Virus record (IMG/VR): IMGVR_UViG_3300047667_000579
Location: 1-31,396 of that record
Strand: one strand, 5' to 3'
Length of the DNA stretch: 31,396 bases
DNA from: a virus
The translations under genes were made by a program, and so were the position numbers. This document shows positions 8,969-25,942 of the stretch, piece after piece; position 1 is the stretch's first letter, and each line of letters starts with the position of its first letter. A model generated the notes under the pieces. It saw only the letters and a list, made by a program, of their open reading frames with translations. It was not told the DNA's origin and did not search any database.

Positions 8969-8998
8969 AACAAAACCCCAAAAATTAAGTTATAAATA
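8969..8998 (+). promoter_or_regulatory. Late promoter-like motif, copy 1 (upstream of packaging genes)
   Basis: AACAAA (8969-8974), a 12-base spacer, then AAGTTATAAATA (8987-8998). The same two blocks with the same 12-base spacing occur at 13710-13739 and 25913-25942, each time at the head of a rightward late unit. The distance from AACAAA to TATAAATA fits a -35/-10 pair, and the boxes differ from the host-type TTTG/TAnnTTTG. It lies 50 bases before the ATG of the candidate small terminase. Confidence 0.6.
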
Positions 8999-9048
8999 AG
9001 TAACAAGGTGTTAAAATTATAATTTGAATAAACAATACTTTTTTCAAT

Positions 9049-9351
9049 ATGAAAGATACAAGGGGAGGCAAAAGAGAAGGAGCTGGAAGAAAAACTAAAG
9101 TCGACGAAGAAAAAGTTAATAATATAATGCTATCAGCGATGGCTAAATTCTTTAACGTAAAAGGTGACGACAAAGCAAAGCAAGCGTTTGCAATGGACTT
9201 GCTAGAATTTGAACGTGGTAAAATGTTTATCGCTGAACACATTTTCGGCAAGCCTAAAGAGATCATTGAGAATATTAACCACAATATTGAACACGACTTA
9301 ACTGAAGAGGCTATAAAGTTGATTAATAAAGAGTTGGAAAATAAGTATTAA
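9049..9351 (+). CDS. Candidate terminase small subunit
   Basis: A 100-residue protein opening with RGGKREGAGRKTK, the basic GGxREGAGRK motif found at the N-terminus of many phage small terminase subunits and related DNA-binding proteins. The rest is helical, with an IAEHIFGKPKE segment and an acidic C-terminus. It sits about 950 bases upstream of TerL, separated only by a zinc-ribbon microprotein and a methyltransferase, and is the first gene after the late promoter-like motif. A DNA-recognition role in packaging fits, but the motif alone is not decisive. Confidence 0.6.
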   Translation: MKDTRGGKREGAGRKTKVDEEKVNNIMLSAMAKFFNVKGDDKAKQAFAMDLLEFERGKMFIAEHIFGKPKEIIENINHNIEHDLTEEAIKLINKELENKY

Positions 9352-9381
9352 AACATAAAACTATGAAAAAATACGTAATTC

Positions 9382-9412
9382 TTGGATAATTAATATAATT
9401 GTTGTATATTTG
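9382..9412 (+). promoter_or_regulatory. Bacteroidota-type promoter TTGG-N19-TATATTTG
   Basis: TTGG at 9382-9385 and TATATTTG at 9405-9412 are separated by 19 bases, matching the TTTG/TAnnTTTG consensus. Bases 9387-9421 are repeated exactly (35 bases) in the opposite orientation at 25856-25890, ahead of the other methyltransferase unit. It should drive the zinc-ribbon protein and methyltransferase independently of the late promoter. Confidence 0.7.
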
Positions 9413-9434
9413 TTGAAAATAATAATTATAAATT

Positions 9435-9560
9435 ATGAAAAAAAATTGGGGTTTTAAACACAAACATAATTACGAGGTAAATACTTGTGAAGATGATGAA
9501 AACAAAATTTATATATGCACGGAATGCGGTAATGTTAAATTAGATAAACCTAGAAAATGA
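9435..9560 (+). CDS. Zinc-ribbon-like microprotein
   Basis: 41 residues from ATG 9435 (AAATTATG). Contains KHKHNYEV, then C18, and C29-T-E-C-G-N-V, so a single CxxC with an additional Cys and His residues, compatible with a small zinc-binding fold. The stop overlaps the methyltransferase start as ATGA (9557-9560), so the two are translationally coupled. Function unknown; possibly an accessory of the methyltransferase. Confidence 0.6.
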   Translation: MKKNWGFKHKHNYEVNTCEDDENKIYICTECGNVKLDKPRK

Positions 9561-10285
9561 TAGATTTAAGATTAGGCGATTGTCTTGAGGTAATGAAAAC
9601 ATTCGCGGATAATAGTATAGACGCTATAATTACTGACCCACCATACGGAACTACTGCTTGTAAGTGGGATAGCGTTATTGATTTTAAATTGATGTGGGAG
9701 CAGTTAAACAGGATTATAAAACCTAATGGGGCAATAGTTTTATTTGGTAGCGAGCCTTTTAGTAGTGCTTTAAGAATGAGTAATATTAAGAATTATAAGT
9801 ACGATTGGATTTGGAAGAAGCCAAAAGGAACAGGGCATTTAAACGCTAAAAGAATGCCTATGAATGACGTAGAAACTATTAGCGTTTTTTATATAAAGCA
9901 ATGTACTTACAATCCACAATTTACAGAAGGTAAACCATATAAATCTAAAAGCGGAAAAAGTAGTTTTGATGGTTATGGAAAAGATAATAGAAAAGGAAAT
10001 GACAATAAAGGTAAAAGATACCCTAAAAGATTGTTAGAGTTTAATGTAGTTGAAAGAAACACAGTACACCCAACACAAAAACCATTACCATTATTAGAAT
10101 ACTTAATTAAAACCTACACCAACGAAAACGAAACTATTTTAGACTTTACAATGGGAAGCGGTTCGACAGGACTAGCAGCAAAGAATTTAAATAGAAACTT
10201 TATAGGAATAGAAATGGATAGCGCATATTTTAGTATTGCTGAAAACAGAATTAATAAAAGTGATTTGTTTAGTTTAAATAAATAA
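9557..10285 (+). CDS. DNA (adenine) methyltransferase, beta-class N4/N6 type
   Basis: A 242-residue amino-methyltransferase. Motif IV DPPYG is at 27-31 and comes first; the AdoMet-binding FTMGSGSTG is at 197-205, preceded by HPTQKPLPLLEYLIKTY (171-187). This order is that of the beta class, which methylate adenine N6 or cytosine N4. No restriction gene lies beside it, so it is probably an orphan phage methylase protecting its DNA from host restriction. The C-terminal 60 residues are nearly the same as in the methyltransferase at 24798-25730. It is coupled by ATGA to the zinc-ribbon protein. Confidence 0.9.
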   Translation: MIDLRLGDCLEVMKTFADNSIDAIITDPPYGTTACKWDSVIDFKLMWEQLNRIIKPNGAIVLFGSEPFSSALRMSNIKNYKYDWIWKKPKGTGHLNAKRMPMNDVETISVFYIKQCTYNPQFTEGKPYKSKSGKSSFDGYGKDNRKGNDNKGKRYPKRLLEFNVVERNTVHPTQKPLPLLEYLIKTYTNENETILDFTMGSGSTGLAAKNLNRNFIGIEMDSAYFSIAENRINKSDLFSLNK

Positions 10286-10301
10286 TCATTAACCCCCGTG
10301 A

Positions 10302-11708
10302 ATGACAAATGAAGAAAAGGTTTTAAAATTAAAATGCGAAGGTAGTCTATTATTTTACGCCCGATACATTTATAAGGAAAACCATAATAGAAAATTTATA
10401 CTATCAAATCACTTCGAGAAAATCGCTGAATATTTAGAGGCTGTTTATCGAGGTGAGATTTCACGTCTAATAATTAACATGCCACCAAGGTATGGCAAGA
10501 CAGAACTAGCAATTAAAATCTTTGTTAGTTGGTGTATTGCAAAGAATAACGCCTCTAAATTCTTACACTTATCTTACAGCGATGCATTAGCATTAGACAA
10601 CTCCTCACAGACAAAAGAATACATCCAGAGCGAACCATACCAAAGGCTCTGGCAAATGACTCTTAAAAAGGATGCGCAATCTAAAGGTAAGTGGTTCAAT
10701 GAGTTTGGCGGTGGTATGTATGCGACGTCTTCAGGTGGTGCAATTACAGGATTTGGAGCGGGTGTTACAGGGTGCGAAACTTTTAGCGGTGCTATCTTAA
10801 TTGATGATCCGTTAAAACCAGACGACGCTTTTAGTGAGGTTAAAAGAGGTGCTATAAATGACAGATATAATAACACGATAAGATCACGTACAAATGATTT
10901 AGCTGTGGAAGGTGCGCCTTTTAAAACGCCTATTATAGTTATTATGCAACGGTTACATGAAGACGACATGAGCGGGTTTTTGTTAGATGGTGGTTCTGGT
11001 GAAGAGTGGACGCATTTATGTATGCCTGTATTAGACGAAAACAATAAACCTCTTTGGAATGATAAGCATAATTTTAAACAGATCGAGCAAATAAGACAAG
11101 CCGATCGTTATACATTTTCAGGTCAGTACATGCAAACACCATCGCCAGATGAGGGTGGTGAATGGAAGCGTGACTGGTTTCCTATTATAGATCAGTCAGA
11201 AGTACCTAGGGACGTTAAGTGGAATCTTTACATAGATGGAGCATACACAAAAGAAACAAAGAATGATCCAACTGGATTTCAAGTGTCAGGCAGAAGCGGA
11301 AACAATTTATACATCCTGTCTTCAATTGATAAGTATTTGGAGATGCCACAACTAATTAGATTTATTCAATCTTACATCGATGCTTTAAATGTTAAAATAC
11401 ACATTACAAAAGTAGAGCCTAAAGCCAGTGGTAAATCTTTAGTGCAATTAATTCGAAGCCAAACTAGATTAAATGTTACTGAAATTCGTGGAATGTTTGT
11501 AAACACTTCTAAAATAGAAATGGCTAGAGCGTCGTCTTCTTACATACAAAGCGAAAGAGTTATACTTGTAAGGGGTGCATGGAATGAAGCGTTCTTACAT
11601 CAGATAGCGTTGTTTCCAAATGGTAAGCATGATGAGCATGTTGATTTAACCTGCTATTCTGTTGAAGAAAATTTATTACGTTGGAGTCCACCAGCTCATA
11701 TAATGTAA
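10302..11708 (+). CDS. terL: Terminase large subunit (TerL)
   Basis: A 468-residue packaging motor. The N-terminal ATPase has Walker A PPRYGKTE (61-68), Walker B AILIDDP (D168, D169) and the coupling segment IIVIMQRLHEDD (211-222). The C-terminal RNase H-like nuclease begins YIDGAYTKETKNDPTG (D312) and contains VEPKASG (E372) and HDEHVDL (D444/D448). It translocates DNA into the prohead with ATP and cuts concatemers. Length is typical. It lies 16 bases after the methyltransferase and is followed directly by a hairpin terminator. Confidence 0.95.
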   Translation: MTNEEKVLKLKCEGSLLFYARYIYKENHNRKFILSNHFEKIAEYLEAVYRGEISRLIINMPPRYGKTELAIKIFVSWCIAKNNASKFLHLSYSDALALDNSSQTKEYIQSEPYQRLWQMTLKKDAQSKGKWFNEFGGGMYATSSGGAITGFGAGVTGCETFSGAILIDDPLKPDDAFSEVKRGAINDRYNNTIRSRTNDLAVEGAPFKTPIIVIMQRLHEDDMSGFLLDGGSGEEWTHLCMPVLDENNKPLWNDKHNFKQIEQIRQADRYTFSGQYMQTPSPDEGGEWKRDWFPIIDQSEVPRDVKWNLYIDGAYTKETKNDPTGFQVSGRSGNNLYILSSIDKYLEMPQLIRFIQSYIDALNVKIHITKVEPKASGKSLVQLIRSQTRLNVTEIRGMFVNTSKIEMARASSSYIQSERVILVRGAWNEAFLHQIALFPNGKHDEHVDLTCYSVEENLLRWSPPAHIM

Positions 11709-11709
11709 A

Positions 11710-13501: not shown

Positions 13502-13645
13502 TTATTTATACATCGCTTGCATGTAGTATCCTAATGTTGTGTTAAATGATACTCCTCCAGTTAGCTTAAAACCTAATTCAAAATACTCTTTTACTTTTGT
13601 TTCTAAATCAGGTGATAGATCCTCTGTTAATATTATATAATTCAT
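13502..13645 (-). CDS. DUF1737-like small protein
   Basis: Read from the reverse ATG at 13645-13643, 47 residues: MNYIILTEDLSPDLETKVKE, YFELGFKLTGGVSF, and a final YYMQAMYK. This is the compact DUF1737 layout: a strand, an L-x-x-K-V-x-E-x(4)-G helix and turn, GGV, and a final YxQAM strand. The biological role of the family is unknown. It has its own TATCTTTG box at 13662-13669 and its own terminator, so it is a separate reverse-strand unit. Confidence 0.7.
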   Translation of the reverse strand: MNYIILTEDLSPDLETKVKEYFELGFKLTGGVSFNTTLGYYMQAMYK

Positions 13646-13661
13646 AAATATTTATTTTAAA

Positions 13662-13669
13662 CAAAGATA
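13662..13669 (-). promoter_or_regulatory. Bacteroidota-type -7 box TATCTTTG (reverse strand)
   Basis: Reverse-strand TATCTTTG, 16 bases before the ATG at 13645. It forms one arm of a divergent promoter region whose other arm is the late motif at 13710-13739. Confidence 0.5.
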
Positions 13670-13709
13670 CAATAAATTTACTAATTAACACCAACTATTT
13701 AAATATAGT

Positions 13710-13739
13710 AACAAAAACACTAAATTTAAGTTATAAATA
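13710..13739 (+). promoter_or_regulatory. Late promoter-like motif, copy 2 (head of tail module)
   Basis: AACAAA (13710-13715), 12 bases, AAGTTATAAATA (13728-13739), then CA and the ATG at 13742. The upstream flank (from AATTAACACCA at 13683) is also shared with the copy at 25913, with 3 mismatches in 33 bases. Because the ATG lies only 10 bases after the start of TATAAATA, transcription from this site would give an almost leaderless mRNA. Confidence 0.65.
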
Positions 13740-13741
13740 CA

Positions 13742-14305
13742 ATGAACATAACAATTAAAGTGCCTACGTCTTTCGACGATATAACCATCGAACAGTATCA
13801 AAGATTACACAAGATTAATGAGTCTGGTGTAACTGGTAAAGCATTAGACGACACCATGCTTAAACTATTTACAGGAGTTGATAATGTAGGAGGTATATCA
13901 CAAAAGGATAGAGACAGCTTGCTTAAATCAATTGGAACGGCATTAGTTACGGAGGGTACATTTAAACAACGTTGTAAACTGGGTTCTTTAGATTTGGGAA
14001 TGATACCTAACTTTGATAGAATGTCTAGTGATGAGTATGGAGATCTTATAAAGTATGCTGATGATACTGAAAACTTACATAGATTCATGGCTGTTGCTTA
14101 CCGACCGATTAAACATAAAGACGCATTTAAAAATTATAGTATCGTAAATTATACAAATACTTTTGAGTTAAGTGAGCAAATGAAACAATTACCTTTAAGT
14201 ATAGCAAAAGGGTTTGAGGGTTTTTTTTTGAATTTATCGAACGATTTAGAGCATCATATCCTGAAGTGTACAGCGGAGGAACAAGTGAGGGAAATAGCGC
14301 ACTAG
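13742..14305 (+). CDS. Tail assembly chaperone, short form (gpG-like)
   Basis: A 187-residue protein opening MNITIKVPTSFDDITIEQYQ, the usual start of Bacteroidota phage tail proteins that begin with a small ubiquitin-like strand and the D-I-T-I-x-Q-Y motif. Downstream, at T9G (14221-14230), a -1 shift would leave this frame and enter the one ending at 14472. This is the arrangement of lambda gpG/gpGT, which coat the tape measure before the tail tube forms. The zero-frame tail after the slip site (NLSNDLEHHILKC...) ends at 14305. The gene heads the second late unit. Confidence 0.7.
   Translation: MNITIKVPTSFDDITIEQYQRLHKINESGVTGKALDDTMLKLFTGVDNVGGISQKDRDSLLKSIGTALVTEGTFKQRCKLGSLDLGMIPNFDRMSSDEYGDLIKYADDTENLHRFMAVAYRPIKHKDAFKNYSIVNYTNTFELSEQMKQLPLSIAKGFEGFFLNLSNDLEHHILKCTAEEQVREIAH
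14218..14230 (+). other. Probable -1 ribosomal frameshift site
   Basis: The sequence is GGGTTTTTTTTTG. Zero-frame codons are GGT TTT TTT TTG, so T-TTT-TTG (14224-14230) and T-TTT-TTT (14221-14227) are both perfect X-XXY-YYZ heptamers; G-GGT-TTT overlaps them. The -1 frame is closed by TGA at 14215-14217 and open from there to 14472, so the slip site lies at the very start of the usable window. No strong downstream stem is obvious. Confidence 0.75.
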
Positions 14306-14472
14306 GATACTTTAACAAGTGGGGATTTTATGCGACTGTTTACGATTTAGGGGATGGAGATTTAGAAAAAGTTGATAAGTTATTAAATACAAATATACAT
14401 AAAGTTCATGTTCTTTTAGCAATTAGAAACGACACAATGAAACTAAAACATAAAATACAAAATACGCAATAA
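14218..14472 (+). CDS. Tail assembly chaperone, -1 frame extension (gpT-like)
   Basis: The -1 frame from the slip site reads FEFIERFRASYPEVYSGGTS, then GYFNKWGFYATVYDLGDGDL and HKVHVLLAIRNDTM. The part upstream of the internal ATG at 14266 is clearly protein-like (IERFRASYPEVYSGG), so initiation at 14266 would discard conserved sequence. The fused product from 13742 would be about 243 residues, sharing its first 162 or so with the short form. In lambda the T domain binds the tail tube protein. The 3' end overlaps the next gene as TAATG. Confidence 0.7.
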   Translation, partial: GFFFEFIERFRASYPEVYSGGTSEGNSALGYFNKWGFYATVYDLGDGDLEKVDKLLNTNIHKVHVLLAIRNDTMKLKHKIQNTQ

Positions 14473-14930
14473 TGAGCCATTACACAAAAGTACTTTATTA
14501 CTTTAAAGAATTACTAGAAAGTGATCCTTTAGTAGTTACGGTTACAAATGACGAAGACGGAATGTCATTAAATAAGATGGACTTATTTATGCTTGCTAAT
14601 ATAGAGGTAAATGATTCACCACTGACAAATGGGCAGACAGTTGGATTTGATTGTGTGTTAACCGTTCTTGACATAGTAGACGACAACAAAGAAATTACTG
14701 AAGACAAGTTTTTCAGAAATAATAATGAGGTTGACATTTACAACGAAACTCACGCAGTCATAAATAGATTCTGGACGAAATTAAATCAGGACTTTTTAAG
14801 CCGTGGGATTAAAGCACCTGATAACGGTACAGCAGAAAAGGGAAGATTAGAAACAAAAGATAATGCAATAGGCTGGAGGCTTCCATTTAGTATTCAAATG
14901 CCTAACAATAAATTACATTTAAGCCAATAA
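14472..14930 (+). CDS. Probable tail-completion or minor tail protein
   Basis: A 152-residue protein beginning MSHYTKVLYYFKELLESDPL and ending in GWRLPFSIQMPNN. The FxxLLxxDPLV start, the DIYNETHAVINRFW helix and the closing PFSIQMPN strand fit a family found in the tail operons of Bacteroidota phages. No catalytic motif. Its position between the chaperones and an HK97 gp10-like gene supports a role at the head-tail interface or tail terminus. It starts one base inside the chaperone stop. Confidence 0.6.
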   Translation: MSHYTKVLYYFKELLESDPLVVTVTNDEDGMSLNKMDLFMLANIEVNDSPLTNGQTVGFDCVLTVLDIVDDNKEITEDKFFRNNNEVDIYNETHAVINRFWTKLNQDFLSRGIKAPDNGTAEKGRLETKDNAIGWRLPFSIQMPNNKLHLSQ

Positions 14931-14945
14931 ATAAATAAATAAATT

Positions 14946-15230
14946 ATGAGTACAGAAACATTTAACTTACCAGCAGATAAGACAGCATTTGGTGGTTATG
15001 GTATTAATGAGATTACAAGTTCTGGTGCAGTAGTAACTATTGCATCAGTAGATAGATTTGCAACAATTGAAGCAATCGGAGACACTACTTTTGCATTTAC
15101 AAACGATGCCGACAAAGGCATGTTAACAGCAGCTGCACAAGTATTAAAAGACGGAAAGTTTATGTTTGGTAACTTCCATTCTTTGGTGGTTGCTAGTGGT
15201 AAATTAAGAGTCTACTATACGAAGTCTTAA
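14946..15230 (+). CDS. Small structural protein
   Basis: A 94-residue, beta-rich, Gly/Ala/Thr-rich protein (MSTETFNLPADKTAFGGYGI start; GKFMFGNFHSLVVASGKLRV end). It resembles short virion proteins of Bacteroidota phages with an F-G-G-Y-G start and a VASG-x-x-R-V-Y end, likely a beta-sandwich that trimerises or decorates the particle. Exact site in the virion is unknown. The next gene overlaps its stop (TAATG). Confidence 0.6.
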   Translation: MSTETFNLPADKTAFGGYGINEITSSGAVVTIASVDRFATIEAIGDTTFAFTNDADKGMLTAAAQVLKDGKFMFGNFHSLVVASGKLRVYYTKS

Positions 15231-15745
15231 TGTCTGTAGATGCAGCATTAAATAGATTCGGTAAAGTTGTTGTTAAGGAGGCTAAAACCGCCCTAACGAA
15301 ACAAGACCGCAATGTATCTAAAGAGCTGTATAATTCTATTAGATTTGATTCTAAAGTTTCTAAAAATTCTTTTGAGCTGTCAATTTACATGGCAGATCAT
15401 GGTAAGTTTTTAGACCAAGGTGTAAAAGGTAAATCAAGTTCATTAAAAGCGCCAAACAGTCCGTTTCAATTTGGAAGCGGAACAGGTAAGAAAGGAGGTT
15501 TAACAAAAGGGATTGATAAGTGGGTTCGTGCTAGACGTATTCAGTTCAGAGATAGAAAGAGCGGTAAGTTTATGAGTTTTCAAAACACGGCTTTCTTAAT
15601 TGCTAGAAGTGTTTACCAAAAAGGAACTAAAGAAACCAAGTTCATAACCAAACCTTTTAACGCTGCTTATAAAAATTTACCTGAAGAAGTAGTAAAAGCT
15701 TACGGATTACAAGTGGAGCAATTGTTTAAAAATGTTATTATATGA
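15230..15745 (+). CDS. HK97 gp10-like tail protein
   Basis: A 171-residue protein with the HK97 gp10 / tail completion layout: an N-terminal helix, SKELYNSIRFDSK, the strand FELSIYMADHGKFLDQGVKG (the conserved Y-A-x-F-L-D-x-G-V signature), then a loop rich in Gly, Ser and Lys (SSSLKAPNSPFQFGSG, GTGKKGG) and a helix ending NTAFLIARSVYQKG with G-T. This family joins head and tail in siphoviruses. The stop overlaps the next start as ATGA. Confidence 0.75.
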   Translation: MSVDAALNRFGKVVVKEAKTALTKQDRNVSKELYNSIRFDSKVSKNSFELSIYMADHGKFLDQGVKGKSSSLKAPNSPFQFGSGTGKKGGLTKGIDKWVRARRIQFRDRKSGKFMSFQNTAFLIARSVYQKGTKETKFITKPFNAAYKNLPEEVVKAYGLQVEQLFKNVII

Positions 15746-16809
15746 TTTTAACTAGAAGTCCTTACTATATTACAGTACCTTGGCTAAAAGCTGGAGAGGC
15801 TACTGTTCCTGATAAATATATTTTACAGATATTTGTATGGAATGGAGAAAAGTCTACACCACCAGCTACACCATTATACGAAGAGGAAAATGTTAATCCT
15901 TTAGGTCTTACGGGTTCAATTGATATTAATATTTCTCCTTATGTAAACGACTTGTTTATTACTACTTTAACAAATTACGCTAATACCGTTGCAGCATCTG
16001 CGAACTCTTCTTTATGGGTTCAAACACAAGTTATTTATTACATTTCTGGTGTGGCTCAATCTCCTGACATAGTGGCTACATCTTTAGCTGTTGCAGGTTA
16101 TGGTTACGGAATACAAGGCAAGAATAGCGGTACACCTAGCAATGATTTGTTAGATAGTGCGATATTTGTAAATGTATCTAAAACGACGCAATACAATACA
16201 GCGTTTAAAATATCTGAAACTGATTCGGTTGTAGTTGATGTTACATCAAAGCCAAGCGATAATTTTAATTATACCGTTACGATTCCATCAGATTCAACTG
16301 CTGGCGATTTAGTGAAGAACTTATTTATTAATTGTGCAAACGCAGGAACAGATACATCTTTAGAAATAAAATTAGACACTGTTTTAGTTCAAACTTTACT
16401 TATAAAAGACGAGGCTAGATATACACCTATTGATGTTAATTTTATTAATAAATTTGGGCAGAGACAAACCATTGTATTTTTTAAAGAAGTTATAGACTCT
16501 ATCAAGGTTACTTCAGATTCTTATGAGAGTTCTAACGGTCAACCATCCGACGGCATACATCAAAATGTAGTGTATAACAAAAACGGTGTTTCTGATTTTA
16601 AAGCAAAGACTGGATTTATTGATGCTGAAAACAACGAAGCTATTAAACAATTGTTACTATCTGAAAAAGTTTGGGTTGTTACAGGCGATTTATTTAACCC
16701 TGTTAACGTTTCGAGTTCTGGAGTTGAGTATAAGACCAGACAAAGAAACCGTTTAATTGATTATGACATAGATTTTAATTACGCTTATAACGAATTGAAT
16801 AACGTATGA
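15742..16809 (+). CDS. Tail structural protein
   Basis: A 355-residue beta-rich protein. N-terminal SPYYITVPW and GSIDINISPYVND; the C-terminal half includes INKFGQRQTIVFFKEVIDSI, then GFIDAENNEAIKQLLLSEKV, NPVNVSSSGVEYKTR and NRLIDYDIDFNYAYNELNN. The last segments are strongly conserved in tail operons of Bacteroidota phages, where the protein sits just before the large tail-tip protein, as here. It is probably a distal tail or baseplate component. Overlaps the next gene as ATGA. Confidence 0.7.
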   Translation: MILTRSPYYITVPWLKAGEATVPDKYILQIFVWNGEKSTPPATPLYEEENVNPLGLTGSIDINISPYVNDLFITTLTNYANTVAASANSSLWVQTQVIYYISGVAQSPDIVATSLAVAGYGYGIQGKNSGTPSNDLLDSAIFVNVSKTTQYNTAFKISETDSVVVDVTSKPSDNFNYTVTIPSDSTAGDLVKNLFINCANAGTDTSLEIKLDTVLVQTLLIKDEARYTPIDVNFINKFGQRQTIVFFKEVIDSIKVTSDSYESSNGQPSDGIHQNVVYNKNGVSDFKAKTGFIDAENNEAIKQLLLSEKVWVVTGDLFNPVNVSSSGVEYKTRQRNRLIDYDIDFNYAYNELNNV

Positions 16810-19800
16810 TAACAGCCTTATACATTGGTAACGAAAAATTAGATTTGTTTAAAGATGACAATATTGTTATCAAAAATTCAGTATCTAAAATTGAAGATAT
16901 CACAAAGGTATTTACAGACACCTCTAACAGTTTTAGTGTACCCGCATCAGACAACAACAACCGTATATTTAAACACTTTTACAACGCAAGTATTAACAAC
17001 GCATTTGATGCACGTAAGCTTGTATTAGGCGCTATTTATTTAGACGGATTACATTACAAGAGTGGTAACTTTAAATTGAATAAGGTTATCTTAAAGTCAC
17101 AAAAAGCACACAGTTATTCGTTAGATTTCTTTGGGTTATTAACCGAACTAAAAGAGTTGTTAAAAGACGATAAGCTTTCTAGTTTAAGTGGCTTGTCTTT
17201 TTACAATTTTCCTTTTGATTATGGTACAGTTAAATTTAAATTAATAAACAATAAGACATCATCAACACAGGCAAACATTCCTGTAGTAGGAACAATATTA
17301 AGTCCTAAAAGATACATTTATGACAGTAATACTAGCACAAATAATACTGATTCCTTAAAGAATTTAGCGGACAACAACACGTCTACAAATAGCGGATTAG
17401 ATTGGACTGATTTAAATTTTAGTATTCAGAATTTAACTATTATACAATACATCGAGGATAAATATAATTTAACTTTTAGTCGTGATTTTTTTGGAACGCA
17501 AGCATTTACTGGTTTGTATTTATTGTTAAACGGTGGTAAATCTTTTAACCAATTTTATCAGCAAATAACATTCGATACGAGTGGAGACCCTACGGTTTCT
17601 GGAAATGTAATGTTAAACAATTCTACGTTATTAAACCAAAGAATATTTTTTGATTTAGACGTTAACAATACGACGACTCCTGACTTTGATATAATAGTAA
17701 AATCAGGGAATACAATTATATCAGAAAAAACAAACCCGACTAGAACAAGACCTGGGATTATTTACCGAACAGCAGAATTTCAAAGCTTTAATAATTTAAC
17801 ATTTTTTATACGTTCGAGATCAATTATAAATTATAGCGTAATTATCGTAAGGATTAATTCGAACGACGGAGCAAGCTACACAACCACAACGACAGCAAAA
17901 GATATTTCTGGAGATTTTGACGTGCCAAGTAAAATGCCTGACATAAAAATTATTGATTATTTAAAAGGATTATTTCAGACTTACAAATTAATCGTACGAC
18001 CTAGAGCAAATAACAATCTATACATAACTACTATAAATGATTATTACAGGAATGGAACGATTCGAGACATTACTAAACTTATAGATTTTACAGAAACACC
18101 CGTAACGGTTGGTAAGATGCTGAATGAGATTAACTATAAATTTCAAGAAGGTCAAACTTTATTATCTAAACAATTTAGAAATATAAACGAGGGTATCGAC
18201 TACGGTAATTTAGAAGAAAAGATTTTAGATGATACTGGGGAGTTAATAGATGGTGAGTCATTAGATTATGAATTACCATTTGAGAATATGGTTTACGAAA
18301 GATTAAACGACCTTGATAGTGTGGTTAATTCAAATGTTGTTTATGGATTTCTAGCTAATGATAGTTTAGAGCCGACAACAATTAAACCACATTTACATTA
18401 CGTTAATAATGTTCTTTTAGATTCAAAAATTAAGGTTATAGTAAACGACACAACAACCGAAACTTTAACAAATCTAAACTTACCAAGCCATACTTTAGGG
18501 TATATCGCCCCTCAATTTAGCACGGTGTTTAACGAGGAATTTAATGAGTACAATGGTGAAAGAATTACGAATACTTTGTACTCTAATTACCATAGAGATT
18601 ACATTGATTTAATATTTAACAAAAAGAAAAGAGATTACAATTTTACAATAAAGAATGCACCTTTAGAGCTGGTTAAGAATATAGACTTAAACGATGCGAT
18701 TGTAATTAAAGGGCGTGGATATAGAATTAATGATTTTGACACAAACATCATAACAAGAGATATTAGTTTAAATTTAATTAACTCTTTAAATCAAAGTTTA
18801 ACACCTATAAAATATTACACCGCTGATAATTGTTCAGCTGATTTAGGTATTAATATAGCTGCTTTAGATGTAAATGAATTTTCATGCCCTGTAATATATT
18901 TTAATACATTGCAATCTGGATCGTTTCAAAAAGTTTGCCCTACTGGCTCGACTGGTAACTCTGTAACTTACAGTATTCCCGCAGGAGACTTTTCATCAAC
19001 AATTAGCCAAGCGGCAGCAGATGCAAAGGCAGAGGCAAAAGTTACGGCAAACGGTCAAAATAATGCAAATAGTTTAGGGGTGTGTACTGTAGATTCAACT
19101 GCTCCTACTTTAAATCTTTCTACTGCTGCTTCTCCTTTTTATAGTGAATTTACAAATGAGATTATATTTTCAGTTAACGCAAATACTACAGCGGTTGATT
19201 TAACGACTGACAATTTAGTATGGAGTCAAGTTACATCTTTACCTATTACTATTTCTTCACCAGCAAGAAATGGTTTATTTGACTGGGCAGTATTTTCTAA
19301 TCTTCAAAACGACGTAACATACACCGTTAGATGTGTTGCTACTGGTACAGATGGAACAACTGTAAGTGCTGATTTAAGCGTGCCTGTTGCTGTTACAATA
19401 CCACAGGAAAGTATAACGTTTACGACTAATTTTACTGGGTCGTTAAGTGCATCTGATATTTTAGGAGTTACTTTAACTAATTTAAATTGGACTGTAACAG
19501 GTGGTTTAAGTTCATCGGGAACTTCAAACACTATAAGTCTTTCAGGAAATGTAGGGGGTGCGGTTGTTACTATATTTGCAGGTAATATTGATACTGCACC
19601 AAATTTTAAACTACAATCTAAAAATGTAACAAGTGTTGATATAACAAAAGCGGTAGGTTTAAATAAGGTGCTTCTTACTTCAAATAACTTATCTTCTATA
19701 GATTTAAGTGAAAATACAAGTTTAACTAATGTTACTATTGGTAATAACACAGGTATAACATCGTTAGACTTGTCAAACAATACTGCTTTAACAAGGTTGT

Positions 19801-20126
19801 CATTATCTAATTTGGGTATAACTTCTTTAGATGTGAGCGCAAGTGTTTTATTAGAAGTGATTATTTGCGTTAACACTGACGTAACATCTTTAGACTTAAG
19901 CAGTAATACAGAATTAACGGCTATTGAGGTTTACAATAATAATTTATCAGATTTAAACATTAAAAACACAAATAACACTAATTTAACTATTTTTAGAACA
20001 AATGGAAATTCTAATTTAACTTGTATTTTAGTAGATAACAAAACTTATGCAGATGCAAACTTTGTAAACTCTGCATCGATGGCTTTCGATTCACAAAACA
20101 CTTTTTCAGACACAACATGTCCTTAA
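16806..20126 (+). CDS. Large tail-tip protein with DUF5977 domain and leucine-rich repeats
   Basis: A 1106-residue protein. Residues about 1-690 begin MITALYIGNEKLDLFKDDNI, then EDITKVFTDTSNSFSVPAS, and look like the Bacteroidota phage tail-hub protein (beta-rich, ending ISLNLINSLNQSLTPIKYYT). Residues about 700-760 carry a DUF5977 unit (SGSFQKVCPTGSTGNSVTYS, then AAADAKAEAKVTANGQNNAN, closing C). An Ig/Fn3-like stretch (about 765-920) follows. Residues about 930-1075 are leucine-rich repeats of 20-22 residues (TSLDLSNNTALTRLSLSN pattern). The N-terminal part should anchor it on the tail; the C-terminal repeats probably bind the host surface. Confidence 0.75.
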   Translation: MITALYIGNEKLDLFKDDNIVIKNSVSKIEDITKVFTDTSNSFSVPASDNNNRIFKHFYNASINNAFDARKLVLGAIYLDGLHYKSGNFKLNKVILKSQKAHSYSLDFFGLLTELKELLKDDKLSSLSGLSFYNFPFDYGTVKFKLINNKTSSTQANIPVVGTILSPKRYIYDSNTSTNNTDSLKNLADNNTSTNSGLDWTDLNFSIQNLTIIQYIEDKYNLTFSRDFFGTQAFTGLYLLLNGGKSFNQFYQQITFDTSGDPTVSGNVMLNNSTLLNQRIFFDLDVNNTTTPDFDIIVKSGNTIISEKTNPTRTRPGIIYRTAEFQSFNNLTFFIRSRSIINYSVIIVRINSNDGASYTTTTTAKDISGDFDVPSKMPDIKIIDYLKGLFQTYKLIVRPRANNNLYITTINDYYRNGTIRDITKLIDFTETPVTVGKMLNEINYKFQEGQTLLSKQFRNINEGIDYGNLEEKILDDTGELIDGESLDYELPFENMVYERLNDLDSVVNSNVVYGFLANDSLEPTTIKPHLHYVNNVLLDSKIKVIVNDTTTETLTNLNLPSHTLGYIAPQFSTVFNEEFNEYNGERITNTLYSNYHRDYIDLIFNKKKRDYNFTIKNAPLELVKNIDLNDAIVIKGRGYRINDFDTNIITRDISLNLINSLNQSLTPIKYYTADNCSADLGINIAALDVNEFSCPVIYFNTLQSGSFQKVCPTGSTGNSVTYSIPAGDFSSTISQAAADAKAEAKVTANGQNNANSLGVCTVDSTAPTLNLSTAASPFYSEFTNEIIFSVNANTTAVDLTTDNLVWSQVTSLPITISSPARNGLFDWAVFSNLQNDVTYTVRCVATGTDGTTVSADLSVPVAVTIPQESITFTTNFTGSLSASDILGVTLTNLNWTVTGGLSSSGTSNTISLSGNVGGAVVTIFAGNIDTAPNFKLQSKNVTSVDITKAVGLNKVLLTSNNLSSIDLSENTSLTNVTIGNNTGITSLDLSNNTALTRLSLSNLGITSLDVSASVLLEVIICVNTDVTSLDLSSNTELTAIEVYNNNLSDLNIKNTNNTNLTIFRTNGNSNLTCILVDNKTYADANFVNSASMAFDSQNTFSDTTCP

Positions 20127-20142
20127 CAAATAAAATAAAAAA

Positions 20143-20739
20143 ATGGCAATAGAAATAATAGACGTAGGAACATCAGCAGGAGCTAAAGATGGCGAGATAG
20201 TAAGAAGCGCAATGATTAAATGTAATAACAACTTTGAAGAGCTTTATGATTTACAGGGTTATACAAGAACTTATTGGTTTGATGCGAATGATGCAGGTAC
20301 AACAACAACGCCAATTACTCACAGTGCTGGCTCTACTACAACTTTTTTAACGAATGACGGAGCAGGATCAAGTACTGCCTCATATAATCCAAATTCAAAA
20401 GCAGCTCTTTGGAATACAACCACAAATAAGTTTGATTTTACTAGCTTAAAAATTGGAGATACTGTTGAATTTAGAATTGACGTTGACATAGCACCTGCCG
20501 CAGCACAAGAAATTAATTTAGTTATGGATATAGGCGAGGGAAATGCTGGTGCTTATACCTTAAACGTTAATCACACGTATTTTAAAACGGCGTCATCAAG
20601 CGACCAAATTACCGCAATGTTTAGAGTTTACATGGGAGATGAAATCACTAGAGCAAACCCAGCGAGGTTTAGACTTACATCAATTGCAGCCACAACAATA
20701 ATCGTAAACGGTTGGTTTTATCAAATAACTGAAGTATAA
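20143..20739 (+). CDS. Fibre- or appendage-like virion protein
   Basis: A 198-residue protein. The N-terminal VGTSAGAKDGEIVRSAMIKC with CNNNFEELY is the particle-attachment motif (D-G-x-x-x-R-x-A-x-x-K-x-N-x-N-F-x-E-L-Y) seen in phage tail fibres and neck whiskers. The remaining 160 residues are beta-rich (WFDANDAGTTTTP, FRIDVDIAP, NLVMDIGEG), suggesting a trimeric jelly-roll-like head domain, possibly receptor-binding. Sits between the tail-tip gene and the tape measure. Confidence 0.65.
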   Translation: MAIEIIDVGTSAGAKDGEIVRSAMIKCNNNFEELYDLQGYTRTYWFDANDAGTTTTPITHSAGSTTTFLTNDGAGSSTASYNPNSKAALWNTTTNKFDFTSLKIGDTVEFRIDVDIAPAAAQEINLVMDIGEGNAGAYTLNVNHTYFKTASSSDQITAMFRVYMGDEITRANPARFRLTSIAATTIIVNGWFYQITEV

Positions 20740-20742
20740 GAA

Positions 20743-20886
20743 ATGAAAGATATATTAGACTATTTAATAAACAACGACTTAAAAGGGGTGTCTGATAACG
20801 TAGATATTGCCAAAGGTAAGCACGAAATCGTAACGGATTGGAGCGAAATTAAATATAAAATTGCTAGATTATGGAGGAAAAAGTAA
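20743..20886 (+). CDS. 47-residue protein upstream of the tape measure
   Basis: From ATG 20743 (TAAGAAATG, 3 bases after the preceding stop) 47 residues to TAA 20884-20886: MKDILDYLINNDLKGVSDNV, then KHEIVTDWSEIKYKIARLWR. It overlaps the tape-measure start by 16 bases. Probably helical. No recognised family; its place suggests a tail-assembly accessory. Confidence 0.55.
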   Translation: MKDILDYLINNDLKGVSDNVDIAKGKHEIVTDWSEIKYKIARLWRKK

Positions 20887-22778
20887 TTAAAATAAATGCT
20901 GACACGTCAGACGCAAACAAAGAGATAGCAAAGACTACTAAAGGAGTAGAATCTTTAGGAAAAGAGACGACAGAAACTAATAAAACCATAAAAAAAACAG
21001 GAGAAACCACCGAAAAAGCGGGTAAAACAGGCTCAAAAGGAGTTGGGTTATTATCGAAAGGTTTTAAAGGTTTAGGTACAGCCATGAAAGCTGCGGGAAT
21101 CGGTTTAATTGTTGGTTTAATTGTGTCTTTAGGTGCAGCATTTGCCAATAATCAGAAATTTATTAATGCTTTTAATACAGTTACTGAAACGGTGGGTATT
21201 TTGTTGTCTCAATTAACAACTACTTTAATAAATGTTTTCGAAAGCGTAACGTCTAATAGCAAAAGTTTTGATGCACTTGGTAAAGTAATGAAGGGATTAT
21301 TAACGATAGCGGTAACTCCTTTAAAATTAGCTTTTTTTGGTATAAAATTAGCAATACAACAGGGTCAGTTAGCTTGGGAAGATTCTTTTTTTGGTGGTAA
21401 AGATAAAGATAAAATAAAACAATTAAATTTATCTATTAAAGAGACTAAAGATAATATTTTTGATACAGGAGTTGAAGCTGTTGCTGCTGGTGTTGGAATT
21501 GTTAGTAACTTTGGAGAGGCAATTACAGAGGTTGGAGATATCGCTTCAAAAGTAGTTGAGGAAGTTGGAAAGATTAGCGTAAAATCTGCTTTTGAAACGG
21601 CAAAGTCAAATGTTGCCATAAAAAACAGTGCAATTTTAGCCGTTGCACAACAAACTTTATTATTAGAAAAATTTGATAGATTAGCAGAAAAACAAAGACA
21701 GATAAGAGATGATGATAGTAAAAGTATTTCGGTAAGACAAGCAGCAAACGACCAGCTTTTAATCGAGTTGGATAAACAAGAAAAAGCTCAAATAAGACAA
21801 GCCAATATACAACTAGCTGCTGCAAATGCACAATTTAAAAGAACTGGTTTAGTGGAAGATGAGGCTGCTGCTATTGACGCACTAGCAAACAAAGAAAGTG
21901 TTTTGGCTGCTATTACTGGATTTAAAAGTGAACAAGATATTAATAGAATTGCTTTGAAAAAAGAAGAGATTGAACTAAACGAAAGTATTTCAGATGCAGA
22001 AAAAGAAAGACGTTTAGCGCAATTAGCATTTGAGTCAAGTGAACAAATTGACCCTCTTTTAAAATTAGAAAAACAAAAAGAATCTTTAGAATTAGAAAAT
22101 CAAATTATATTTGAAGATTTAGAACGTAAACGATTATTATTTTTAGAGGGGACACAGGCTAGAGTGGATGCCGAACAAATTTTCTTAACTGAAAAGGAAA
22201 GAATTGATAATGAACTTTTAGCTAATGAACGTCAAACAAAAGAAGAAAGTATAAAGATTGAGCAGTCTTTGGCGGATGCAAAAGAAACTATTAGAAATCA
22301 AAATTTAGATAATATCTCTGGAGGTATTAGATTACTAGCTTCTTTAGGTGAAAAAAGTAAAGCGTTACAAGCTGTTGCTTTAATTGCAGACAATGCTACG
22401 GGTATCGCAAAGAACATTATTAACACACAAGCATCTAACGCAAAGTTAGCACTAGAAGTGCCATTGCCTTTGTTACCCGCTGCATTATTAGCAAATAATA
22501 TAAGGATGGGTATCGGTATTGCTACATCCGTAGCAGCAACCGCAAAAGGTCTATCTGCTTTAGGTAAAGGAGGCGGAGGCGGTGGTTCAGATGTACCTAG
22601 AGGTGGTCAAGAATCTTCAGCACCATCATTTAACCTAGTGCAGGGAACAGATTCAAATCAAATAGCACAAAGTATAAACCAAGGAAACCAAACACCCACA
22701 CAAGCCTTCGTAGTAGGTTCAGCTGTAACATCACAGCAAGAACTTGACGCAAACAAAATAAACATAGGCTCAATATAA
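20871..22778 (+). CDS. Tape measure protein
   Basis: A 635-residue protein. A polar, Lys/Thr-rich start (INADTSDANKEIAKTTKGVE, coiled-coil-like) leads to a glycine-rich hydrophobic span (about 73-92, AAGIGLIVGLIVSLGAAF). Long helical coiled coils rich in Glu, Lys, Arg and Gln occupy about 240-490 (RLAEKQRQIRDD; KQKESLELENQIIFEDLERK). A second hydrophobic, alanine-rich segment (about 500-570) is followed by a glycine-rich linker (GKGGGGGGSD) and a Gln/Ser-rich tail. This order is typical of short tape measures that set tail length and help DNA ejection. Confidence 0.8.
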   Translation: MEEKVIKINADTSDANKEIAKTTKGVESLGKETTETNKTIKKTGETTEKAGKTGSKGVGLLSKGFKGLGTAMKAAGIGLIVGLIVSLGAAFANNQKFINAFNTVTETVGILLSQLTTTLINVFESVTSNSKSFDALGKVMKGLLTIAVTPLKLAFFGIKLAIQQGQLAWEDSFFGGKDKDKIKQLNLSIKETKDNIFDTGVEAVAAGVGIVSNFGEAITEVGDIASKVVEEVGKISVKSAFETAKSNVAIKNSAILAVAQQTLLLEKFDRLAEKQRQIRDDDSKSISVRQAANDQLLIELDKQEKAQIRQANIQLAAANAQFKRTGLVEDEAAAIDALANKESVLAAITGFKSEQDINRIALKKEEIELNESISDAEKERRLAQLAFESSEQIDPLLKLEKQKESLELENQIIFEDLERKRLLFLEGTQARVDAEQIFLTEKERIDNELLANERQTKEESIKIEQSLADAKETIRNQNLDNISGGIRLLASLGEKSKALQAVALIADNATGIAKNIINTQASNAKLALEVPLPLLPAALLANNIRMGIGIATSVAATAKGLSALGKGGGGGGSDVPRGGQESSAPSFNLVQGTDSNQIAQSINQGNQTPTQAFVVGSAVTSQQELDANKINIGSI

Positions 22779-23339: not shown

Positions 23340-23738
23340 TTAGTACTCGTAATCAACACCAAGCAATATAAAATCTACAGATTCAGAGTAATATCCGTTA
23401 CTTTCTCCATACCATCTAATGTCTACATAGCCTTTAATTGTTGCGAATTTATAGTAAGTCCAAGTACAAGAACCCCATGATTCAGCTTCATTTTCTCGTT
23501 CAATATCTTCTTTAGAAGTTGGTTCGTAGCTAAAAACTTCTTCAGCTTTTAATATTGGATTTCCAACTAAATCCTGCAAGTCACCAACTATATCTTCAAT
23601 AGATACATTTTCACAACAATCTTGTCCGTGATACATTTTATATTGCTTTCCATCTTCGCAAGTAAATATTATCTCATCATTGTCTTTGCTTTCTACTTTG
23701 ACAAGTGTTTTACCAAGCAACTCGTTTAATCTTTCCAT
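23340..23738 (-). CDS. DUF7448-like phage protein
   Basis: A 132-residue beta-rich protein. [11 protein letters not shown], then [40 protein letters not shown], and a C-terminal [20 protein letters not shown] with [11 protein letters not shown]. This motif order is that of a conserved phage family I know as DUF7448; its function is not established. The two adjacent cysteines in QDCCENV are a hallmark of the family. TATATTTG at 23759-23766 is the likely promoter. Confidence 0.75.
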
Positions 23739-23758
23739 TTTTATGTTTTTATTTTCAA

Positions 23759-23766
23759 CAAATATA
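23759..23766 (-). promoter_or_regulatory. Bacteroidota-type -7 box TATATTTG (reverse strand)
   Basis: Reverse-strand TATATTTG followed by TTGAAAATAAAAACATAAAA before the ATG at 23738. A TTTG at 23783-23786 is 16 bases upstream, shorter than the usual spacing. Confidence 0.5.
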
Positions 23767-23800
23767 CTACTTATTTAGTTAACAAACTACACTTTATTAA

Positions 23801-24076
23801 TTAATTTAATTTATCCCAAAATCTTTCATAAACAAAATCTCGTTCGTATTCTTTTAAAAGCAAAAAACTCTTTAAAGCCATTAAAGAACATAGCCTTGTT
23901 TCTTCACATAAATCATCCTCATATTTGCTTTTTTCAGCATCATTTATACAATGCTTTATAGTACCGTCTTCAAGATTACCATCGTCAAAAACAACATGAC
24001 CGTAACCTCCTACACTACCATCTTTTGTATTGTATAAATCATTAATTAATTGTATAGCTTTTTTTATTTTTTTCAT
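23801..24076 (-). CDS. Conserved phage protein, unknown function
   Basis: A 91-residue acidic protein. The middle reads GGYGHVVFDDGNLEDGTIKH with CINDAEKS, matching a recurrent pattern in phage proteins (GG-x-x-H-I/V-V-x-D-D-G-N-x-E-D-x-x-I-x-x-CI), followed by a helical end (CSLMALKSFLLLKEYERDFV). The H, the paired D and the E-D could bind metal, but no enzyme activity is known to me for this family. Confidence 0.7.
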   Translation of the reverse strand: MKKIKKAIQLINDLYNTKDGSVGGYGHVVFDDGNLEDGTIKHCINDAEKSKYEDDLCEETRLCSLMALKSFLLLKEYERDFVYERFWDKLN

Positions 24077-24109
24077 TGTTTATTATTATTATACCTTTGT
24101 TAATATTCA

Positions 24110-24349
24110 TTATTTAAAGAACTTTTTAAATTCAACAAGTCTTAATCCTTCTTCTTTTTGATACTCTGAACTTCCAGTACTTCCAGTTGAAAAACAACTT
24201 TCATAATCTGAATAAACCACTACAGCTGTTTCTGTTTCTGACATTTGAGGAACAAAATCTAAATATAAATTTTCAGCACCTAAAAAATCTTTTACTGTAT
24301 CAAACTCTTTTTTGTTTCTAATTATAATTGATAACCCTTTGTAATTCAT
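24110..24349 (-). CDS. Small phage protein, unknown function
   Basis: A 79-residue protein, probably alpha/beta: MNYKGLSIIIRNKKEFDTVK, then strands and a Ser/Thr/Gly-rich turn (CFSTGSTGSSEYQKEEG) and a final VEFKKFFK. No known domain. Begins in the ATTATG context. Neighbours are other small reverse-strand genes. Confidence 0.6.
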   Translation of the reverse strand: MNYKGLSIIIRNKKEFDTVKDFLGAENLYLDFVPQMSETETAVVVYSDYESCFSTGSTGSSEYQKEEGLRLVEFKKFFK

Positions 24350-24361
24350 AATTTATATTTT

Positions 24362-24568
24362 TTAATTCCACAATTTATTATCACACATTTTTAACAGCCT
24401 CTCTAAATCTTCAATGTCTTTTTTATAGTCACAACTTAAACCACATCTTACATCTTTGTAGATTTCCTCACGTTGTAAATTTAACGCTTGTTTTAAAATA
24501 CACTTTTCGTCTTCAGAAAATAATTGAGTGAACAGATATATTTTAAATCTGTTAAATAACTTTAGCAA
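24362..24568 (-). CDS. Small phage protein with TTG start
   Basis: A 68-residue protein whose only upstream start is TTG (24568-24566, reverse strand); the next ATG would leave 8 residues. The leader ACAACAACTAAAACTAAAAT is of the usual A-rich type, which supports the TTG. The product has a hydrophobic N-terminal helix (LKLFNRFKIYLFTQLF) and then an EDEKCILKQALNLQREEIY helix, with four cysteines. No family recognised. Confidence 0.55.
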   Translation of the reverse strand: MLKLFNRFKIYLFTQLFSEDEKCILKQALNLQREEIYKDVRCGLSCDYKKDIEDLERLLKMCDNKLWN

Positions 24569-24611
24569 AATATTTTAGTTTTAGTTGTTGTTAATGTTTT
24601 ATATAATAAAA

Positions 24612-24788
24612 TCATATTACTTGTAGACACCAAATACGTATAAGGTCTATAACACTTCCGCATACAACAACGGCGTAGGGTTTACCGTCCGCAGCCACTA
24701 CGTAACCATCAATATATCCTATATCACCTTTTTTATGCTGTCCCTCTCTTGGTGTTTGAATTACTTTTACTTTTGTTTTGTTATTCAT
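24612..24788 (-). CDS. Small SH3/KOW-like beta-barrel protein
   Basis: Reverse frame from ATG 24788-24786: 58 residues. KVKVIQTPREGQHKKGDIGY, then IDGYVVAADGKPYAVVV and a short hydrophobic tail. The pattern (V-x-V, K-x-G-D-x-G-Y-I-D-G-Y, P-Y-A-V-V-V) is that of a small SH3/KOW-type barrel, a layout common in short phage proteins that probably mediate binding. Its gene begins 9 bases after the methyltransferase stop. No exact family or function assigned. Confidence 0.6.
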   Translation of the reverse strand: MNNKTKVKVIQTPREGQHKKGDIGYIDGYVVAADGKPYAVVVCGSVIDLIRIWCLQVI

Positions 24789-24797
24789 AATTTTATT

Positions 24798-25730
24798 TTA
24801 CTGTTTTTTTACAGGACTAATTCTTTCACAGGCTATATTAAAATATGCGCTATCCATTTCAATACCTATAAAGTTACGGTTTAAATTCTTTGCTGCTACA
24901 CCAGTACTTCCAGAACCCATAGTTAAATCAACTACCAAATCATTTTCATTGCTAAAAGTCTTTATTAAATCTTCTAATAGTAATACAGGTTTTTGTGTTG
25001 GGTGGTAATTATTTCTATCTCGTTTAAATTCAAAAACATTACTTTTATATTTATCACCTTCTTTTAAATTAAAAGTACTTGAAAATTCATTTTTATAATT
25101 ATTATGTATCTCTTCTAAATAATCAAAATCTTTAAAATCTTGCATTTCTTTAATTTTAAAATACTTAATAATATCATTGTAAGTTTCTAAAGTACATAAA
25201 TCAAATTGAGAACTTTTAAATCTAAAAACGTGGTCGCTTCTTTGACCAACTACATCAATAATGTATTTTTTAGTTCCACCAATAAATTCAAACACTTGTT
25301 TAAAATAAGGTCTTAAAGGGTGCAGTCCTTCAAATTCATTATTTTTACTATAAATTAAAATATCTTCTGTTTTATAAAGTAGTGCTTTTTTACTTCTCAT
25401 AAAACTACCTAAAGTATCTTTTAACCATATTGCTCTATAATTAAAAGGAAGATTAGGTATTGCACTATTCATTAATTTATTTGTAAATGGCTCTTGTGCA
25501 AATAAAATCATTTTACCGTTTTTACGCAGTATTCTATTTGCAATTTCCATTATTTTATCAGTAGGTATAATGTTATCCCATTCGTGCTTTTCTTTGCCTT
25601 GGTGGTATATTCCGCTATCGCTTTGACCTTCCATTGTGCCATAAGGTAAATCCGTGAGAATTAAATCAACGCTTCCACTTTCTATTTTATCGCTTTCAAT
25701 TAAGCAATCTCCTTTGTATAATTTTATCAT
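24798..25730 (-). CDS. DNA methyltransferase, beta-class N4/N6 type, DLPYG variant
   Basis: 310 residues from ATG 25730 (an upstream ATG at 25739 adds 3 residues). 25730 is preferred because it forms ATGA with the upstream stop and gives the usual MIKLYKGDCL start. Motif IV is DLPYG (27-31) rather than DPPYG. After a long target-recognition insert (about 120-235) come HPTQKP (243-248) and MGSGSTG (271-277). The last 68 residues are close to those of the methyltransferase at 9557-10285, but the middles differ, so target sequences should differ. Probably protects phage DNA from host restriction; no nuclease partner is nearby. Confidence 0.85.
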   Translation of the reverse strand: MIKLYKGDCLIESDKIESGSVDLILTDLPYGTMEGQSDSGIYHQGKEKHEWDNIIPTDKIMEIANRILRKNGKMILFAQEPFTNKLMNSAIPNLPFNYRAIWLKDTLGSFMRSKKALLYKTEDILIYSKNNEFEGLHPLRPYFKQVFEFIGGTKKYIIDVVGQRSDHVFRFKSSQFDLCTLETYNDIIKYFKIKEMQDFKDFDYLEEIHNNYKNEFSSTFNLKEGDKYKSNVFEFKRDRNNYHPTQKPVLLLEDLIKTFSNENDLVVDLTMGSGSTGVAAKNLNRNFIGIEMDSAYFNIACERISPVKKQ

Positions 25731-25849
25731 AGTTTGCATTTTTCACATTGTCTTATACATTTAATTATTTCGTCACCTGTTTCCTCTGCTATTTGTACAG
25801 TTTCATCATAACAGTAAAAAGGCTTAACATTATTATATGTAATATTCAT
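25727..25849 (-). CDS. 40-residue Cys-rich microprotein
   Basis: Reverse frame from ATG 25849-25847: MNITYNNVKPFYCYDETVQI, then AEETGDEIIKCIRQCEKCKL. Cysteines at 13, 31, 35 and 38 could bind zinc (C-x3-C-x2-C at the end). Its stop overlaps the methyltransferase start as ATGA, which parallels the zinc-ribbon/methyltransferase pair at 9435-10285. First gene after the reverse promoter at 25856-25890. Confidence 0.6.
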   Translation of the reverse strand: MNITYNNVKPFYCYDETVQIAEETGDEIIKCIRQCEKCKL

Positions 25850-25855
25850 AATTAA

Positions 25856-25890
25856 TATTTTCAACAAATATACAACAATTATATTAATTA
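25856..25890 (-). promoter_or_regulatory. Bacteroidota-type promoter, repeat of the one at 9387-9421
   Basis: This 35-base reverse-strand sequence, including TATATTTG at 25865-25872, is an exact copy of 9387-9421. It directs transcription leftward into the Cys-rich microprotein and methyltransferase. The TTGG of the other copy is not conserved here. Confidence 0.65.
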
Positions 25891-25912
25891 ACACCACTTA
25901 TTTAAAAATAGT

Positions 25913-25942
25913 AACAAATTAGCAATTTTTAAGTTATAAATA
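25913..25942 (+). promoter_or_regulatory. Late promoter-like motif, copy 3 (head of portal module)
   Basis: AACAAA (25913-25918), 12 bases, AAGTTATAAATA (25931-25942), then CA and ATG 25945, exactly as in copy 2 at 13710. Preceded by AATTAACACCACTTATTTAA, also shared with copy 2. Back to back with the reverse promoter at 25856-25890, forming a divergent region. Confidence 0.65.

Follow-up and report, generated by a model that had tools for sequence, protein, structure and literature searches.

The DNA analyzed here (the window) comprises 31,396 nucleotides (nt) of the IMG/VR virus record IMGVR_UViG_3300047667_000579, positions 1 to 31,396, and all coordinates below refer to it. It belongs to a phage that encodes an extracytoplasmic function (ECF)-type RNA polymerase sigma factor (5238-5756) and carries a bipartite, promoter-like motif at three sites. 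Judged from sequence, these sites are very probably promoters recognized by RNA polymerase when it is loaded with the phage-encoded sigma factor, which would give the phage a late switch. The evidence consists of the motif, its conservation and fixed geometry, its co-occurrence with the sigma gene, its co-variation within genomes and the ECF family membership of the sigma factor, all of which were observed. Early genes and leftward cassettes would be transcribed from host sigmaA promoters (TAnnTTTG). The sigma factor, made early, would then steer the core enzyme of the host to GTAACAA / AGTTATA promoters. These would head the packaging, tail and portal blocks and probably also a fourth block (head protease and capsid) outside the window. 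Transcription from the tail and portal promoters would yield leaderless mRNAs. The interpretation offered in a first-pass annotation of this DNA is thus supported, with changed motif limits and a changed status of the site at the terminase genes.

Three copies of the motif in the window

The string AACAAA-N12-AAGTTATAAATA occurs as exact copies at 8969-8998, 13710-13739 and 25913-25942, all on the + strand, which confirms the sites and the invariant 12-base spacing reported in the first-pass annotation. From the base composition of the window, ∼6e-5 exact matches would be expected on the + strand and ∼1e-5 on the − strand; when as many as 3 mismatches were tolerated, 4 matches were seen versus a mean of 0.81 in shuffled sequences. 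The blocks headed by the three sites are packaging (terS at 9049), tail (13742) and P0-portal (25945). The main features are as follows.

5238-5756, + strand: ECF-type RNA polymerase sigma factor gene, 172 amino acids, with region 2, a disordered linker and region 4 (PHROG 1740, 2e-9)
8966-8994, + strand: weak copy of the putative late promoter, TACAACAA-N12-TAAGTTATA, 54 nt before terS (14.2 bits)
13707-13735, + strand: putative late promoter of the tail block, −35 element AGTAACAA at 13707-13714 and −10 element AAGTTATA at 13728-13735 (33.2 bits)
25910-25938, + strand: putative late promoter of the portal block, −35 element AGTAACAA at 25910-25917 and −10 element AAGTTATA at 25931-25938 (32.7 bits)

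The search was carried further into the genome through contig G001, which is the same phage (100% identity to window bases 1-8561) and adds 12,847 bases upstream, and no fourth exact copy was found in the window or in this 12.8-kb extension. The gene in which the extension breaks off is related to the head-protease gene found in relatives, where that gene has its own site, and a fourth site is accordingly predicted before it in the missing stretch of the genome.

Comparison with related phages upheld the bipartite element and moved its limits. The truly conserved form of the left element is AGTAACAA, found at 13707 and 25910, with GTAACAA as the −35 core, while the trailing AATA of the motif as first described shows no conservation across relatives. 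The placement at the heads of three late blocks holds for the tail and portal blocks, where both promoters are conserved before the homologous genes of relatives. The terminase copy fits the conserved left element poorly (TACAACAA), with 14 bits versus 33 bits, at a profile null rate of ∼1 site per Mb at 14 bits; it is best read as a weak, window-specific copy, atypical though aptly placed directly before terS.

Conservation in related phages

Contigs found through homologues of TerL, the portal protein and the sigma factor share the gene order sigma, terS, terL, tail genes, tape measure, head protease, P0 and portal. In six relatives, whose portal proteins, where present, show 33-64% identity, the DNA upstream of the tail block and of P0 was located by synteny, without use of the motif, and the bipartite element was present in all of them as AGTAACAA, ∼12 bases, TTAGTTATA, then 5-7 bases and ATG, with an altered right half (ACTCTTAA) in G009. 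The family consensus is [A]GTAACAA-N6-(A/T)6-TTAGTTATA, at the same places in the relatives, namely the tail block, the portal block and the head-protease gene. In a profile built from 31 sites, GTAACAA and AGTTAT are invariant by construction of the search; the stretch of six spacer bases preceding AGTTATA consists entirely of A or T, a feature that the search had largely left free. Scanning with this profile gave 1 to 4 sites per relative, before the tail block, before the head-protease gene and before P0/portal.

In all, 2.9 million viral contigs were scanned blind with AGTAACAA-N{10,14}-TTAGTTATA, the gaps of 10-14 serving as an internal control. Among the distinct sites inspected, 18 of 28 with the 12-nt gap were linked to a gene start versus 2 of 38 with other gaps (Fisher p=2.3e-7). 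The exact original string gave 12 matches in viral contigs and is too specific to inform, and a loose pattern, AACAA-N15-GTTA, was rejected as it gave no discrimination. Searches of phage records with the portal and sigma proteins matched only Flavobacterium/Nonlabens phages. The motif is family-wide in this family of viruses of Bacteroidota bacteria.

Some sites are intragenic. They lie in the 3′ part of the T6 gene in 4 related contigs and in the sigma-gene linker, upstream of terS, in G003, G027, G028 and L142, with no start codon of a long open reading frame (ORF) close downstream. Because the peptides encoded at the linker sites differ (VTISDNYSY, VTNDNIISYS, VTKEDNFSY) while the DNA motif is kept, selection seems to act on the DNA motif there; the peptides share a V-T...S-Y pattern, which limits this argument.

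The first-pass annotation had proposed looking for the sigma gene and the motif together in related phages, and the two were found to go together. All related contigs that cover the region upstream of the terminase have the ECF-type sigma gene there and, wherever the start of the tail or portal block is covered, the sigma-bearing relatives examined all show the motif, or a variant particular to the lineage, at that point. Eleven relatives that share only TerL have no sigma factor and hold one weak 11-bit site in ∼370 kb. This co-occurrence rests on the contigs found through proteins (G002-G004, G009, G015, G016, G023-G026, G041, G042 and P12024S); G019-G022, G027-G033 and G037 were fetched because they bear the motif and are circular for this purpose.

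A sigma search of 84,980 genomes gave only one contig with the sigma and tail genes, L253 (CANLAV010000016.1), binned in a Bacteroidetes metagenome-assembled genome. Its tail block is preceded by ...GTCGTTATATTGGTATG, with GTCGTTATATTGGT directly before the ATG, which fits the rule of the family.

The sigma factor belongs to the ECF family

An iterative search among the collected contigs retrieved 22 distinct homologues of the sigma factor, all in contigs of the same phage family. The description of the gene product as ECF-like was borne out by both profile and fold. A profile of 19 homologues matched ECF sigma factors in the PDB (1h3l at a best E value of 7e-5, SigE at 1e-4, SigL at 2e-4 and SigW at 8e-4). 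The Pfam domains r4_2 and r2 were below the cut-off for the window protein, and r2 was found in 10 of the 19 homologues. In the AlphaFold model, regions 2 and 4 each form a confidently predicted bundle of helices, with a disordered linker (67-99) between them, and Foldseek matched the model to SigL (6dv9_F) with a probability of 1.00, M. tuberculosis SigL, SigE and SigH taking the top ranks and B. subtilis SigW standing near the top. Whole-chain template modeling scores were low (∼0.3) because the orientation of the two sigma domains is uncertain in the model. This layout, in which a linker connects regions 2 and 4 and both sigma3 and region 1.1 are absent, is that of ECF (group 4) sigma factors. 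Promoters of these factors are bipartite, with a spacer of ∼16-17 bp and a −35 element in which AAC is typical, and the sites described here agree with this pattern (GTAACAA ... AGTTATA, with a fixed gap).

At 5083-5170 (+ strand), ∼70 nt before the sigma gene, the window holds a multibranched RNA fold (z=−4.3) with a 13-bp closing stem, ATTAGTAAGGCAA/TTGCTTTACTAAT, and three hairpins. It has no Rfam match, and scanning the whole window gave neither an Rfam family nor a tRNA; at this place G015, G016, G019 and L202 carry a different, mutually similar non-coding stretch.

Sites co-vary within genomes

Lineages with a diverged sigma factor have their own −10 variants, and these match between the sites of one genome. 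G009 has ACTCTTAA at two sites, G023 has CATTATA/CATATTATA at three, and the cultured Nonlabens phage P12024S has AAAACAAA...CGTTAAT at six clear sites at late genes. Site similarity was 0.77 within genomes versus 0.63 between genomes (permutation p=5e-4). Agreement of the right half within a genome is the product expected of a genome-encoded reader of the motif and makes a stronger argument than co-occurrence. We infer that the sigma factor of the window recognizes the motif and that transcription from it is late. The co-diverged variants also provide a natural data set on how ECF sigma factors change their −10 specificity.

The promoter could instead be read by a host sigma factor (sigmaA or a host ECF factor) or bound by another phage activator, with the phage sigma factor controlling something else. 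The CGT −10 box of Flavobacterium host ECF promoters (PMC9723704) does resemble the CGTTAAT of P12024S, but the late motif does not fit TAnnTTTG, it tracks the phage family and not a general host signal, it is missing from the TerL-only relatives that also lack the phage sigma factor, and its −10 variants agree within a phage but not from one phage to another. We therefore consider this explanation improbable.

Several points weigh against the assignment of the motif to the phage sigma factor. The terS site is weak and none was found at that position in relatives, and no recognizable packaging-block site was found in the sigma-bearing G002, G009, G015, G016, G019 and G020. Any two features inherited within one phage family would be expected to co-occur, and the permutation test for co-variation used hand-collected sites from related genomes.

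Distance to the start codon and predicted leaderless mRNAs

The ATGs of the tail (13742) and portal (25945) blocks lie 6 nt after the conserved TATA, and that of terS lies 54 nt after it. Among the 43 distinct sites scoring 12 bits or more, the distance from TATA to the ATG is 5-8 nt in 30; in the others it is 15, 19, 28 or 54 nt, or the site is intragenic. The start codons are backed by conserved N-termini (MKxxxxIPxxxxDITxxQYQ and MKxxxPxxTxHxI...). Since the −10 element ends 6 nt before the ATG, transcription of the tail and portal blocks should start at, or ∼1 nt from, the start codon. In phage 7-11, transcription is reported to start 6-9 bp from the promoter element (PMC8948821), and in Deinococcus-Thermus a −10 element ∼6-7 bp upstream of the ORF leads to leaderless mRNA (PMC12340547), a spacing similar to the one found here, although those promoters belong to the housekeeping RpoD and the present ones to a putative pairing of a phage ECF sigma factor with a strictly conserved −35 element. 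By these two precedents, the tail and portal mRNAs should be leaderless or almost so, and most late mRNAs of the family are predicted to be leaderless.

It is conceivable, though we regard it as doubtful, that the whole late program of this phage family consists of leaderless mRNAs made with a dedicated phage sigma factor, so that the sigma switch also switches the mode of translation initiation. If true, an AUG at the 5′ end would set late phage mRNAs apart from those of the host. Leaderless mRNAs are rare in this bacterial phylum: in B. thetaiotaomicron, 5′ untranslated regions under 10 nt account for 3.7%, and leaderless mRNAs for 5.5% in flavobacteria (PMC9723704). The Flavobacterium sigmaA box, TAnnTTTG, is shared with the leftward cassettes and some other genes of the phage, whereas the late motif has no TAnnTTTG and adjoins the ATG. 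Leaderless late mRNAs would bear on how ribosomes that do not use Shine-Dalgarno sequences start on phage messages.

The distance of the −10-like half from the ATG would suit ribosome binding, and A/T-rich upstream sequence is favored in Bacteroidota genes (PMC3160421), so that the motif could be a translation-initiation or mRNA leader signal of late genes, an AT-rich stretch helping ribosomes that work without Shine-Dalgarno sequences. However, the motif is absent from internal late genes and early genes, its −35 half sits 33-36 nt upstream at fixed spacing, copies occur within coding sequence (sigma linker, T6) with no nearby long-ORF start and one lies 54 nt from terS, and the sites co-vary within a genome, which together make a translation signal highly improbable. 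A conserved non-coding element near block boundaries could also be a site for DNA packaging or replication, or an operator to which a repressor or other regulator of the phage binds; the consensus has no obvious dyad symmetry, its orientation is always toward the downstream late gene, and it has −35/−10 promoter geometry, in most sites 5-8 nt from the ATG, and we give this explanation almost no weight beside promoters read by the phage sigma factor.

Comparison with known systems

A phage sigma gene together with a recurrent non-host promoter at late blocks was found here, as in the late sigma systems of phages 7-11 and phiEco32. The closest known system is Salmonella phage 7-11, in which gp47 is experimentally a late sigma factor with promoters GTAAtg-16-aCTA (PMC8948821). 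In both phages, the ECF-like sigma factor has regions 2 and 4, several late blocks carry bipartite promoters whose −35 element begins GTAA, and a stem-loop lies upstream of the sigma gene. Phage 7-11 differs in being an unrelated phage of Enterobacteria with aCTA, not AGTTATA, as −10 element, and gp47 shares only general sigma similarity with the family described here (hhalign probability 88%, ∼16% identity). Descent from 7-11/phiEco32 was rejected, the similarity to gp47 being only distant and the portal and sigma searches of phage records having matched none but Flavobacterium/Nonlabens phages. In phiEco32, gp36 likewise redirects host polymerase to late genes, but from a single-element promoter, tAATGTAtA, with no −35 element and no recognizable region 4 (PMC8948821). 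T4 late promoters have a TATA-like box at the −10 position, as here, but lack a −35 element and use gp55 with gp33 and the gp45 clamp (PMC2988020), whereas the present sites have a strictly conserved −35 element and the sigma factor has region 4. A T4-late (TATAAATA) reading, by which TATA alone would suffice, was rejected because the AGTAACAA −35 element is conserved at the synteny-located sites and in the profile.

In the Nonlabens (Persicivirga) phages P12024S and P12024L (genus Inhavirus), the portal and DUF6712 proteins are homologous to those of the window, one gene is sigma-like (gp33 in P12024S), and late genes have promoters of the same geometry with diverged sites (AAAACAAA ... CGTTAAT). 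No description of their promoters, and no earlier sigma-promoter pair in Bacteroidota phages, was found in a literature search. A phage ECF sigma factor with late promoters is a known kind of system, and promoters abutting the start codon are the added feature. The discovery of more such independent phage sigma/promoter pairs was foreseen in the 7-11 study (PMC8948821), and the system of the window looks like one of them. The pair is conserved enough for late operons to be predicted from sequence, with P12024S as a cultured member, and the promoters could become tight orthogonal expression parts in Bacteroidota.

Other features of the window

The blocks and host-type promoters are as follows.

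9049-11708, + strand: packaging block with terS, a small gene, a DNA methyltransferase (PHROG 67) and terL (PHROG 38, 3.6e-88)
9382-9412, + strand: putative host-type (sigmaA) promoter TTG..TATATTTG of the small gene/methyltransferase cassette within the packaging block, ATG 22 nt downstream
13742-22778, + strand: tail block, T1 to a tape-measure-like protein, syntenic with G002, G003, G009, G015, G016 and G019
25865-25872, − strand: putative host-type −7 box TATATTTG of a divergent leftward cassette, adjoining the phage-type promoter
25945-31395, + strand: portal block with P0, portal (PHROG 33693, 1e-82), a DUF6712 protein (2.5e-16) and others

The remaining promoter-like boxes of the window are mainly of the TAnnTTTG type, in agreement with the earlier description, and the clearest stand 15-24 nt before the ATGs of the leftward cassettes. 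Two divergent leftward cassettes have a common upstream region (TTAATTA-ACACCA..TATTTAAA) at 13640-13707 and 25850-25910; because it abuts the phage-type promoters, these data suggest that cassettes with host-type promoters were inserted at late-block boundaries. Directly before terS, at 9024-9047 (+ strand), stands TTTGAATAAACAATACT-N-TCAA, kept in G002 and G003 and more loosely in G015, which might serve in packaging or be a host-type promoter. The sigma gene and terS are separated by some 3.3 kb of small genes, and the packaging-block site is found right before terS and not, as in some relatives, within the sigma gene. Several small early genes at 7170-8825 (+ strand) have in common a leader, AACTAATTAAAACAAACAAAATTATG, or close variants of it. 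The window also encodes two related N6/N4 DNA methyltransferases, at 9557-10285 (+ strand) and 24798-25739 (− strand), and a third related gene lies in the upstream extension.

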